From contig CAJXTU010000004.1 in NCBI GenBank assembly GCA_913060865.1, forward strand, positions 1 through 64,000: a DNA stretch of 64,000 nt. Direction: 5' to 3'. Below are positions 328-4,523 of this stretch, in pieces (position 1 is the stretch's first letter; every line of letters starts with the position of its first letter). Made by a program: the position numbers and the translations under genes. This DNA is from an uncultured Cycloclasticus sp. (GTDB taxonomy: Bacteria > Pseudomonadota > Gammaproteobacteria > Methylococcales > Cycloclasticaceae). The notes under the pieces were generated by a model that was given only the letters and a program-made list of their open reading frames with translations, was not told the DNA's origin and searched no databases.

Positions 328-717
328 ATGAGCACACAACCTAATACCGACTTAGAAACATTCCCTAACCCAAACACTGAGCGTGACTATACCATTCGTA
401 TAGATACACCTGAGTTCACCTGCTTATGCCCAAAAACAGGGCAGCCTGATTTTGCAACACTAACACTTGAATATGTACCGAATGAAAGCTGCATCGAACT
501 TAAATCATTTAAACTTTATGTTTGGTCTTACCGTGATAAAGGGGCATTCCATGAGGCCGTCACAAACTCAATACTCGCGGATTTAGTCAGTGCTTGCGAA
601 CCACGCTTCATGCGTTTATCGGCTGAGTTTAATGTTCGAGGCGGTGTTTACACAACGGTTGTTGCTGAACATAAAGCGGATAATTGGCAGCCTAGCATTC
701 CTGTTCAGCTGCCTTAA
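328..717 (+). CDS. queF: NADPH-dependent 7-cyano-7-deazaguanine reductase QueF (type I)
   Basis: This cytoplasmic enzyme reduces preQ0 to preQ1, the four-electron nitrile reduction in queuosine biosynthesis for tRNA wobble positions. At 129 residues it is the short, unimodular type related to GTP cyclohydrolase I (T-fold), not the long E. coli form. The nucleophilic Cys is C55 in the context NESC, followed by the family motif ELKSFKLY (57-64), and FHEA at 74-77 supplies the substrate-binding His/Glu. The start is the only plausible ATG. No other queuosine gene is in the window. The leader carries a terminator-like hairpin at 255-279. Confidence 0.93.
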
Positions 718-777
718 ACTCAAAATCGCTCTTTTCGAATTGAGTTAAGTTCGTTCAGTTTCGATTCATCGCTAAGT

Positions 778-828
778 CTTATCCTTTAACTGCACATTAA
801 CAGAACTGCTGCTGCAGTTAAGGATAAG
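778..828 (+). promoter_or_regulatory. Long hairpin occluding the ribosome-binding site of the next gene
   Basis: Left arm 778-793 and right arm 814-828 form a 15-bp stem with one bulged T and a 20-base loop; T777/A829 and a G-U pair can extend it. The only good Shine-Dalgarno sequence for the gene at 832 (AAGGA, 820-824, 7 bases before ATG) lies in the right arm and would be fully paired. No T-run follows, so it is not an ordinary terminator. I infer translational control, for example an RNA thermometer or an opener-dependent switch. Confidence 0.6.
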
Positions 829-831
829 ATA

Positions 832-1236
832 ATGAAACGACTAAACATATTCACAACCGTTATTTTTTGTTCTCTACTCGCCTTTAGCGCTAACTCATTA
901 GCGGATAGGAGGCATGCTGATCGAGTTCATGACTCAGACCGCCATACTAAGCAGTCGGATCATCAATATCACCCGCATAAAGGTTATTCTATTCGAAGAA
1001 ATTCACACGCTTACACGCATAATCAAAACAGGTATAGGCAAAAGCATCATAATAAACACAACTACCAATCCTACCGCCATTACTCTAACTATGGCCAACG
1101 GGTAAAGCGTGACCGCCATCATTATTATGTCCAACCTCGGCACGTAAGCTATTACCAGCACCCGCAGCCCAGATATTCATCTTTAAGACGCTCTAATTAT
1201 TACAACCCTGGGTTGAATGTGTACTTAAAGTTTTAA
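832..1236 (+). CDS. Small exported His/Tyr/Arg-rich protein, unknown function
   Basis: The 134-residue product has a clear Sec signal peptide: MKR, a hydrophobic run at about 5-22, then ANSLA-DR, so cleavage is likely near residue 24. The mature part of about 110 residues has roughly 16 histidines and many Tyr, Arg, Asn and Gln, with few acidic or hydrophobic residues until the C-terminus, which ends in phenylalanine. I recognise no domain. The composition would suit metal binding or association with polyanions or the envelope; this is inference. The start fits AAGGA at 820-824, inside the hairpin described separately. A strong terminator follows, so it is a single-gene unit. Confidence 0.7.
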   Translation: MKRLNIFTTVIFCSLLAFSANSLADRRHADRVHDSDRHTKQSDHQYHPHKGYSIRRNSHAYTHNQNRYRQKHHNKHNYQSYRHYSNYGQRVKRDRHHYYVQPRHVSYYQHPQPRYSSLRRSNYYNPGLNVYLKF

Positions 1237-1291
1237 TTCATAACAAATAATTCCGTTCCCCCTCCCTTGTGAGATTTTTCTCACATACTCA

Positions 1292-1319
1292 AAGGCGGCC
1301 ACATGGGCCGCCTTCTTTT
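1292..1319 (+). terminator. Rho-independent terminator
   Basis: A perfect 9-bp stem, AAGGCGGCC (1292-1300) with GGCCGCCTT (1306-1314), has loop ACATG and is followed by C and a T-run. It ends the transcript of the His-rich gene. The minus-strand side lacks a T-run, so service to htpG is doubtful. Confidence 0.9.
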
Positions 1320-1351
1320 TACTGCTTAATCCGGGTTAAGAGCCCGCTTAT

Positions 1352-3259
1352 TTATAACAAAGATTGCAACAATTTATTCAATCGCTGCACAAATGTTGCA
1401 GGGTCTTCTAACTGACCACCTTCACTTAATAACGCTTGCTCAAATAACAAGTTTGAAAGATCAGCAAAACGTTCATCATCCGCTTCATCTTTTAAACGCT
1501 GAATAAGCGCGTGCTCTGCATTTATTTCAAACGTTGGCAAACTGGCTGGCATATCTTGACCCGCAGCTTTCATAATGCGTTCCATATGCGCGCCCATTTC
1601 GTGCTCATCAGCTACCAAACAAGCAGGAGAATCCGTTAACCGCGAACTCACGCGCACGTCTTTAACTTTCCCATCCAAGGTCGTCTTGATTTGCTCAAGT
1701 ACGCTGTTTAATGATTCATCGTCCTTTTTATCGTCAGATTTCTCATCAGTAGCATCATCTTTATTAACCTCACCCAAATCGAGGTCGCCTTTAGCAACAG
1801 ATTGTAAGGGTTTGCCGTCAAATTCTGGCATATGTTGCACCAACCACTCATCGACGTGATCGGTTAATAACAACACTTCAATACCTTTCTTTTTAAAGAC
1901 TTCAAGGTGAGGGCTGTTTTTAACCGTCGCGTATGCACCACCGGTTAGGTAATAAATTTTACTTTGACCTTCTTGCATGTTCTCAATATAAGAACCCAAG
2001 GTTACGGTTTGCTTACCATCTGTTTTAGTGGATGCGAAACGTAACAATTTAGCAATTTTATCTTTATTTTTTGTATCCTCGATTGGACCTTCTTTTAGTA
2101 CTGAACCAAACTCAGCCCAAAATATGTCGAATTTTTCAGGATGCTTTTTAGATAAGCTTTCGATTAACGACAACACCTTCTTAACCGCGCCCGATTTCAA
2201 CAAGTCAATTTGTTTACTTTGTTGTAATAGTTCACGCGATACATTTAAAGGCAAACTATCAGAATCGATAATCCCTTTAACGAAACGTAAGTAACGCGGC
2301 ATTAACTCGCCACCTTCCATAATGAAGGTACGTTTAACGTATAGTTTCACGCCACTGGTTGCTTCTCTATCCCACATATCAAACGGCGCTTTAGAGGGCA
2401 CATACAACAATAATGTATATTCGTTTGTGCCTTCTACTTTACTGTGCGTATAGGCTAACGGGTCTTGATAATCATGCAGTGTTTGCTTATAGAAGTCGTT
2501 GTAGTCGTCTTCTTTTAATTCATTCTTAGCTTTTGTCCACAATGCCGTTGCGCTATTAACCGTAATATCATCGGGCTCGTCTTCTTTTTCTTCATCCTTA
2601 TTCTCATTTTTCATCAAAATAGGAATATCGAGGTGCTCAGAAAACTTATGAATAATTGACTGCAAGCGGTAACTTTCTAGAAACTCGTCCTCACCCTCTT
2701 TCAAATGTAAAATAACGTCTGTACCACGCGCTTCTTTTTCAGTTGTTTCAATGGTGTATTCGCCTTCTCCTGAAGACTCCCACTTCACACCCGTTGCTTT
2801 ATCTTCACCGGCTTTTCGCGTTACCACAGTCACTTTATCGGCAACGATAAACCCAGAATAAAAGCCAACACCAAACTGGCCGATCATCTGGCTATCTTTA
2901 CTTTCATCACCTGTTAACGATTCGAAAAACTTTTTAGTTCCCGAATGCGCGATCGTCCCAATGTTTTTCTTAACCTCATCGGCCGTCATACCAATGCCGT
3001 TATCTGAAATAGTTAATGTTCGCGCGTCTTTATCAACCGCTAAACGAACTCTCAGCTCGCCGTCACCTTCATAAAGCCCTTCATCGGACAGCGCTGCAAA
3101 ACGTAACTTATCTGCCGCATCAGATGCATTTGAAACTAATTCACGTATAAAAATTTCTTTGTTGCTGTAAAGCGAATGAATAACTAAATCTAAAACTTGT
3201 TTAGTTTCTGCCTCAAAGCCTAGTGTTTGCTTGTCATTCTTGTCTATTGTTTCACTCAT
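1352..3259 (-). CDS. htpG: Chaperone protein HtpG (Hsp90)
   Basis: This 635-residue protein is full length for bacterial Hsp90. The N-terminal GHKL ATPase shows RELVSNASDA (catalytic Glu at about 40, Asn at about 44), DNGIGM (86-91) and a GVGFYSGF lid segment. The middle domain contains the ATP-contacting region around the conserved NVSRELLQ, and the C-terminal dimerisation domain follows a charged linker near residue 500. It is an ATP-driven dimeric chaperone in the cytoplasm. The gene stands alone and is transcribed from a near-consensus heat-shock promoter at 3300-3327, giving a leader of about 30 bases. Confidence 0.98.
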   Translation of the reverse strand: MSETIDKNDKQTLGFEAETKQVLDLVIHSLYSNKEIFIRELVSNASDAADKLRFAALSDEGLYEGDGELRVRLAVDKDARTLTISDNGIGMTADEVKKNIGTIAHSGTKKFFESLTGDESKDSQMIGQFGVGFYSGFIVADKVTVVTRKAGEDKATGVKWESSGEGEYTIETTEKEARGTDVILHLKEGEDEFLESYRLQSIIHKFSEHLDIPILMKNENKDEEKEDEPDDITVNSATALWTKAKNELKEDDYNDFYKQTLHDYQDPLAYTHSKVEGTNEYTLLLYVPSKAPFDMWDREATSGVKLYVKRTFIMEGGELMPRYLRFVKGIIDSDSLPLNVSRELLQQSKQIDLLKSGAVKKVLSLIESLSKKHPEKFDIFWAEFGSVLKEGPIEDTKNKDKIAKLLRFASTKTDGKQTVTLGSYIENMQEGQSKIYYLTGGAYATVKNSPHLEVFKKKGIEVLLLTDHVDEWLVQHMPEFDGKPLQSVAKGDLDLGEVNKDDATDEKSDDKKDDESLNSVLEQIKTTLDGKVKDVRVSSRLTDSPACLVADEHEMGAHMERIMKAAGQDMPASLPTFEINAEHALIQRLKDEADDERFADLSNLLFEQALLSEGGQLEDPATFVQRLNKLLQSLL

Positions 3260-3299
3260 TAAAATTACCTTTATCCATCAAGTTTATCTGCAAAATCTA

Positions 3300-3327
3300 A
3301 TATGGGGCCTTGTAAAATATTTTCAAG
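3300..3327 (-). promoter_or_regulatory. Sigma-32 (heat-shock) promoter of htpG
   Basis: Read on the minus strand: CTTGAAA (3327-3321), a 13-bp spacer, then CCCCATAT (3307-3300). This matches the RpoH consensus CTTGAAA-N13/14-CCCCATNT almost perfectly. Transcription would start near 3292, about 33 bases before the htpG ATG. Confidence 0.9.
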
Positions 3328-3521
3328 CCTTAGTAGCAGTGCAATAAAAACTCTACCCCATCAACAAATACTAGGTTACCTATAAGCACTTTTTAAATCA
3401 TCGCTTGTTAAGCATAAAAAACTGAGGTAAAACATCACCGTAATGATGGTTAAGTTTGATATCAACGTTTACTGCTATCTACAAAAAAACATAATAATAA
3501 CGTTATAAAATGGAGAAGAAA

Positions 3522-4523
3522 ATGAGTACACGGCAACACAGATTAACCGTAGATGATGTTAATGGTGCATGGGCCATTATTCCAACGCCTGCTATCACAA
3601 CTGCTGAAGACTGGCGAACCGAAGACTCCGTTGATTATGATGAAGTAGCAAAAGCAGTGGAAGGCCTTATCTCTTCAGGCGTTGACGCTATCATGAGCCA
3701 GGGAACTTTTGGAGAAGGCGCGACCCTCACTTGGGAAGAAAAGAAAAAGATGATGGAGGTTATGGTTGAAACTGCCGCAGGCAGAGTTCCTATCTTCGTT
3801 GGCGTCACTACTATGAATACTCGTGAAACCATTCATCAACTAAAATTCGCGCGCGACATAGGGGCTGATGGTGCAATGGTTGGTCTACCGATGTGGCAAC
3901 AAATTGATGTGCCTGGGGCGGTGCGCTTCTATAAAGATATTACCGATGCAGTTCCCGAAATGGCCATCTGTGTTTATGCTAACCCAGAAGCTTTTAAGTT
4001 TGATTTCCCCACACCATTTTGGGCCCAAGTGGCAGATATTCCACAAATCATTACCTGTAAATATATCAATATTGCACAGCTTCATGTTCATACCTTGGTA
4101 TCACGTAAAAAAATACGGTTTTTAGCTCTCGAAACCGACCATGCCGACGCAGCCAAAATGGACCCTGATTTTCATACGGCCTTTTGGACACCTCTTGCCT
4201 GCACAGGACCAGAACTAACCATCTATTGGCGAGATAGCATAAAAGAAGCGGTCAAAACTGGTGACTGGAGTATCCCGGATGCCATTTACCCTCAAATAAT
4301 GCAAACACTTGCTCACATATTCCCTCCTGGCGGCTTCTCGGAATTTTCACGCTATAACATTCAACTTGATAAGGCACGCATAAACGCCGCAGGGTGGATG
4401 AAGGCAGGCCCTTGTCGCCCACCTTATATAAGTGCCCCTGAAAATTATATTGAAGGTGCCATTAAAGCTGGAAAAGGATGGGCAGAATTGAATAAAAAAT
4501 TAATTGAAACAGGCTCTTTGTAG
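3522..4523 (+). CDS. nahE: trans-o-hydroxybenzylidenepyruvate hydratase-aldolase family (NahE/PhnE-like)
   Basis: This DHDPS/N-acetylneuraminate-lyase superfamily TIM barrel (333 residues from this start) resembles the PAH-pathway hydratase-aldolases. Those enzymes convert trans-o-hydroxybenzylidenepyruvate to salicylaldehyde plus pyruvate, or the naphthalene-ring homologue. Seen here: DVNGAWAIIPTP near the N-terminus, GTFGEGATLTWEEK (from residue 61), the barrel Tyr in VYANPEAFKFDFP, the Schiff-base Lys at about 180 in TCKY, and the C-terminal AAGWMKAGPCRPPY. I chose ATG 3522 over 3510 because GGAG at 3512-3515 is a well-spaced Shine-Dalgarno for 3522 and lies inside the upstream codons. Exact substrate is unproven. 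It has its own transcript end and sits upstream of a carrier, an SDR and a dienoate hydratase. Confidence 0.88.
   Translation: MSTRQHRLTVDDVNGAWAIIPTPAITTAEDWRTEDSVDYDEVAKAVEGLISSGVDAIMSQGTFGEGATLTWEEKKKMMEVMVETAAGRVPIFVGVTTMNTRETIHQLKFARDIGADGAMVGLPMWQQIDVPGAVRFYKDITDAVPEMAICVYANPEAFKFDFPTPFWAQVADIPQIITCKYINIAQLHVHTLVSRKKIRFLALETDHADAAKMDPDFHTAFWTPLACTGPELTIYWRDSIKEAVKTGDWSIPDAIYPQIMQTLAHIFPPGGFSEFSRYNIQLDKARINAAGWMKAGPCRPPYISAPENYIEGAIKAGKGWAELNKKLIETGSL

Follow-up and report, generated by a model that had tools for sequence, protein, structure and literature searches.

A Shine-Dalgarno-hiding hairpin with a putative internal promoter may silence read-through RNA at a His-rich protein gene in Cycloclasticus

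Introduction

Closely packed bacterial genes often read into one another. In an uncultured member of Cycloclasticus, an oil-degrading marine bacterium, a gene for a His-rich protein follows queF, and its ribosome-binding site is held in a long predicted hairpin. The preliminary description of this locus considered the hairpin to be a riboregulator, opened by heat, by a small RNA or by a bound protein. This raises the question of whether the hairpin senses a signal, or whether it separates RNA that enters from queF from RNA that begins at a promoter of the gene itself. Here, the hairpin was examined by folding, by comparison with the leaders of relatives and by analysis of the adjoining DNA. 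The window referred to throughout is the whole stretch analyzed, 64,000 nucleotides of contig CAJXTU010000004.1.

Results

Organization of the locus

The queF gene encodes an NADPH-dependent 7-cyano-7-deazaguanine reductase (positions 328-717, plus strand; Pfam QueF, 4.8e-34) and is the presumed source of read-through RNA. It is co-directional with a gene (832-1236, plus strand) for a 134-residue protein that is rich in His, Tyr and Arg, has a signal-peptide-like N terminus and is predicted to be exported. This protein has no significant match in Pfam or NCBIfam, and thus belongs to no family known to them. It diverges fast, with 39-48% identity to its better matches, and the locus is instead anchored by queF, which adjoins the His-rich gene in every examined relative that has that gene. 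An intrinsic terminator-like hairpin lies 3' of the His-rich gene (1292-1314, plus strand), and beyond it is an htpG-like gene, named from its sequence, on the opposite strand. In contrast, no terminator was found between queF and the promoter-type box described below, either here or in 15 other leaders. The queF stop codon (717) and the stem are 58 nt apart, a distance at which terminating queF ribosomes should not open the latter. At the very start of the contig, positions 14-47 (GTCTCGTGGGCTCGGAGATGTGTATAAGAGACAG) correspond to the Nextera read-2 adapter. As this sequence interrupts an smc-like reading frame (2-193), an artefact of assembly seems likely for the initial ~47 bases.

A stable stem covers the start of the His-rich gene

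Folding of positions 760-860 gave −26.1 kcal/mol, compared with −12.4 ± 2.75 kcal/mol for 200 dinucleotide shuffles, none of which folded as well (z = −4.98; 0/200). The stem is composed of nine base pairs (778-786 with 820-828), a bulged U787 and six further base pairs (788-793 with 814-819). The inverted repeat with a 15-bp stem and one bulge that was reported previously is therefore real and correctly placed. Additional pairs (G776·U830, U777-A829 and A794-U813) extend the whole stem to about 18 bp with the single bulge, such that the left arm spans 776-794 and the right arm spans 813-830 (both plus strand), as judged from folding and from the leaders of relatives. The Shine-Dalgarno sequence AAGGA (820-824, plus strand), recognized from its sequence, is located 7 nt 5' of the ATG (832-834). 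As the preliminary description had stated, it is buried in the right arm of the predicted stem, and no T-run is present 3' of the stem. Among the 47 predicted starts in the window, that of the His-rich gene is the hardest to open over the −14 to −6 region, at 15.4 kcal/mol, relative to 7.0 kcal/mol for the next and a median of 3.2 kcal/mol. No other start matches its Shine-Dalgarno-to-ATG sequence exactly.

The palindrome sequence is present once in the genome, which rules out a repeated mobile palindrome or REP-like element, and an invertible loop was unsupported when the loops of relatives were compared. The loop at 795-809 is itself conserved, also in relatives (ATTAACARAACTGC). Besides a TTAAC part, it contains AACTGC, which repeats part of the left arm and feeds a second, small hairpin.

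The hairpin is confined to, and conserved in, the genus

Sixteen leaders were compared, a total that includes this one and a second copy in genome G007. All Cycloclasticus genomes readable next to queF have the hairpin at the same place, 3' of queF and over the Shine-Dalgarno of the His-rich gene, except G017, which is without the gene. When 301 genomes of the order were searched with a covariance model, the element was located in 15, each of them a member of this genus. Thus, a lack of conservation among relatives, which had been named as an outcome that would count against the proposed riboregulator, is not what was found: the lock is conserved among Cycloclasticus genomes. Across the 16 leaders the arms are retained and the loop length is highly variable. 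The left arm is separated from the ATG by as little as 49 nt or as much as 116 nt, a spread that is due to about 55-65 extra loop bases in two groups (G012/G007 and G010). These loop inserts (L018, L019, L012 and L028) contain further predicted hairpins, one of which has a UUCG-type tetraloop. Genome G016 has a weak lock, and the outer part of its stem is decayed. Genome G007 has two loci with queF, hairpin and His-rich gene, L012 (G007:C18) and L019 (G007:C29). The C18 locus lies on a short contig with a partial queF, and its reading frame leaves the family after the N terminus. The double locus may reflect a mixture of strains in the assembly.

A promoter-type box is positioned for a predicted start inside the stem

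Just upstream of the left arm is a direct-repeat box, GTTCAG-N5-ATTCAT (753-769, plus strand), of 11-bp period and OmpR/PhoP-family type. Its core, TTCAG-N6-TTCAT (754-769), ends exactly 10 nt before TATCCT (780-785, plus strand), a −10-like hexamer within the left arm whose position 10 nt after the box is invariant in the genus. Both the response-regulator-type box and the overlap of the left arm with a probable −10 had been missed in the preliminary description. The direct repeat TTCAG-N6-TTCATC is found in 15 of the 16 leaders, and its spacing to the left arm is fixed; G003 has kept the stem without a recognisable box. Across 18 Cycloclasticus genomes, the pattern TTCAG-N6-TTCA-N11-TANNNT has 37 matches versus 3 for a reversed control. 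Most of these (28/37) fall at two orthologous places, 15 before the His-rich gene and 13 before an operon for a PepSY-like protein and PhoP/PhoQ-like proteins.

The box overlaps the −35 position at a fixed spacing from the −10, as in a class II promoter of the OmpR/PhoP family. Class II PhoP promoters have their box about 12 nt upstream of the −10 (PMC3335776), and the His-rich gene resembles these promoters both in this spacing and in the location of the box at the −35 position. The preferred reading is that TATCCT serves as the −10 and that the box occupies the −35 position. If so, a transcription start is expected near 792 (790-794, plus strand), 7 nt beyond the end of this hexamer, and the gene's own transcription should start inside the hairpin. 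A start within the hairpin, which the preliminary description had regarded as fatal to its riboregulator, is thus probable for the gene's own promoter, as judged from comparison of the box and −10 geometry.

The PepSY-like operon in the same genome is preceded by a similar box. In this operon (L113, G000:C12:64800-69200, positions 1189-3553, minus strand), the PepSY-like gene, whose product has no match in Pfam and is named from its sequence, is followed by genes for a response regulator (2558-3241, minus strand) and a sensor kinase. In NCBIfam the latter two match PhoP and PhoQ best, although neither match reaches its curated cut-off. The box, its spacing and the position of the hexamer are kept before this operon across the genus. 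Past the box, the only well-conserved block of the PepSY leaders is TAAACT, located exactly where the His-rich leaders have TATCCT. None of the PepSY leaders has a hairpin comparable to that of the His-rich leader, and the −10-like hexamer is therefore conserved independently of the stem. The shared motif suggests that the PhoP-like regulator may act as the activator at the 753-769 box. The PepSY operon itself is apparently self-controlled via the same box, as far as its sequence indicates.

Loss of the left arm is predicted to unlock the Shine-Dalgarno

Accessibility was compared between leaders with the left arm and leaders without it, the latter modeled as RNA starting 7 nt after the −10. 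With the left arm present, the probability that the Shine-Dalgarno core is unpaired is 0.000-0.13 in 15 of the 16 leaders (0.375 in G016). With the left arm absent, this probability is 0.17-0.84 across the 16. The cost of opening changes from 5.5-12.6 kcal/mol (3.2 in G016) to 0.4-3.7 kcal/mol. For the leader in this window, folding predicts that the lock is lost as the 5' end of the RNA is moved through 780-788. In RNA started near 792, a small second hairpin, AACTGC-TGCT-GCAGTT (804-819, plus strand), is predicted to abut the Shine-Dalgarno. A small hairpin is predicted in 15 of the 16 leaders, with sequences that differ between clades (arms AACTGC/GCAGTT, TACTGC/GCAGTA, ATCCC/GGGAT and TATGCC/GGCATA). 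Because its right arm doubles as the inner part of the long stem's right arm, the two folds are mutually exclusive in the groups without a loop insert; in the group with a loop insert, they can coexist.

Comparison of the arms gives moderate support for selected pairing

The search for compensatory changes that the preliminary description had proposed gave a divided outcome, in that pairing of each leader's own arms is favored and the formal count of two-sided changes is zero. The absence of two-sided changes in the main stem core of the aligned leaders is due to the core barely varying. In the alignment used for this count, G011 was off by one base; it was anchored correctly for the test of the outer pairs. 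Left arms pair better with their own right arms than with those of others (permutation p = 0.004-0.005 for 8-10 diverse leaders, relatedness uncorrected). The outer pairs, which are located 5' of the −10 and take the forms U-A/C-G, G-C/G-U/A-U and C-G/G-C/A-U, form more often than when shuffled (p = 0.01-0.05, relatedness uncorrected). As these swap tests carry no correction for relatedness, they give moderate support for selected pairing. Since the expected start lies 3' of the outer pairs, these pairs, if real, would be relevant only in RNA that enters from upstream. Part of the complementarity between the arms, that of TATCCT with AGGATA, would arise from two motifs that are each conserved anyway.

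Discussion

The stem, its conservation, the geometry of box and −10 and the change in accessibility on loss of the left arm are best accommodated by a hairpin that silences read-through RNA and contains a two-component promoter, a reading that we hold with somewhat better than even confidence. RNA that enters from queF would have both arms and form the long stem, which would hide the Shine-Dalgarno, and no His-rich protein would be made from it. Once the 753-769 box is occupied by a PhoP-like response regulator, RNA polymerase would use the −10 in the left arm and start near 792. The resulting RNA, lacking the left arm, would form only the small hairpin at 804-819, leaving the Shine-Dalgarno open for translation. 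In this way, the regulated promoter alone would control a gene presumed to lie inside the transcription unit of another. The hairpin is thus most likely not a signal sensor but, according to the folding models, a means by which locked queF read-in RNA is distinguished from open RNA of the gene's own promoter, and the His-rich leader probably does not need a sensor.

The alternative of a riboregulator, in which the productive mRNA contains the whole hairpin and a temperature change, a small RNA, a protein or a metal melts it, is unlikely. It would account for a strong, conserved stem that contains the Shine-Dalgarno, and the direct repeat of AACTGC in the left arm and the loop would permit two alternative folds. 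The left arm, however, has a −10-like hexamer at a fixed spacing from a conserved box, such that the main RNA should be without that arm. When folding was carried out from 4 to 75 °C, the probability that the Shine-Dalgarno is unpaired was 0.002 at 25 °C, 0.007 at 42 °C and 0.075 at 75 °C. With more than 90% of it still paired at 75 °C in the model, an RNA thermometer is disfavored, and the earlier suggestion of one is contradicted by a lock predicted to hold up to that temperature. In ROSE and FourU thermometers, too, a stem ahead of the start codon contains the Shine-Dalgarno; in contrast to these, the Cycloclasticus stem is far too stable, has no match in Rfam at the gathering score and probably lacks its left arm in the main RNA. 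Moreover, the sequence and length of the loop vary widely in relatives, unlike a ligand pocket, and the conserved structured domain beyond the stem that is expected of a riboswitch or protein-bound leader was not found in the leaders of relatives. Of the riboregulator originally described, the locked ribosome-binding site is retained, as a predicted and conserved feature; its opening by heat, small RNA or protein is most likely not, given a start that is probably inside the hairpin.

Also improbable, to a marginally greater degree, is a role in RNA processing or stability, in which the stem would form the 3' end of the queF mRNA or an RNase site in a spanning RNA and the lock would be incidental. 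The short distance of 58 nt from queF to the stem, in which no terminator was found, is consistent with this role, but the stem is not followed by a T-run, it is always over the Shine-Dalgarno, and queF in other families of the order is without it. Long inverted repeats can be operators and the left arm overlaps a probable −10, but a DNA-level operator or cruciform, with RNA pairing of no consequence, is very unlikely, since the arm-to-arm distance differs by more than 50 nt between relatives, which does not suit a single dimeric operator, the second arm is always on the Shine-Dalgarno, and the palindrome occurs once in the genome.

The silencing of read-through RNA has precedents. Transposase genes of IS10 and IS50 are protected from read-in transcription because the RNA made by it folds so as to cover the start of translation; these belong to mobile elements, which the Cycloclasticus hairpin does not, and are a lead only. 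A closer parallel is provided by the T4 gene e (lysozyme), soc, 49 and I-TevI leaders, in which a long read-in RNA hides the Shine-Dalgarno (PMC3014915, PMC2988022). The gene's own promoter in these leaders, a late promoter for gene e and I-TevI, lies in the DNA of the stem's 5' strand and yields RNA that is without that strand and is translated, with an effect of about 100-fold for lysozyme (PMC3014915, PMC2988022). The Cycloclasticus locus would be a chromosomal version of this arrangement: its long RNA is likewise predicted to hide the Shine-Dalgarno in a stable stem, and its own promoter would also lie in the stem's 5' strand. It differs in being a bacterial chromosomal gene with a second, small hairpin beside the Shine-Dalgarno, and in having a response-regulator-type box rather than a late promoter; the T4 arrangement was shown by experiment, whereas the Cycloclasticus case is known from computation. 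The Aeh1 phage gene mobE and T4 segB also combine, within a larger transcription unit, a late promoter with a hairpin that hides the RBS (PMC2988022). These, however, are phage homing endonuclease genes and are not under two-component control. Within the papers and terms covered, a literature search returned no direct chromosomal precedent, which is weak evidence of absence.

Whether the hairpin constitutes a genus-wide chromosomal element is, in our estimation, evenly balanced. Such an element would comprise a two-component promoter in the 5' arm of a Shine-Dalgarno-locking hairpin, together with a small hairpin by which promoter-born RNA keeps its Shine-Dalgarno open. It would act as a self-contained cassette and, with no need of a terminator, would insulate a regulated gene from transcription of the neighboring gene. 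A hairpin that hides a Shine-Dalgarno is not automatically a sensor, and knowledge of the start site has to come first. The signature, a −10 in the 5' arm of a start-site hairpin, can be searched for across all genomes. Insulation by a promoter within a hairpin has so far been best documented in T4-like phages; if confirmed in Cycloclasticus, the His-rich gene would be a chromosomal gene that ignores its neighbor's transcription through the position of its promoter within an RNA hairpin.
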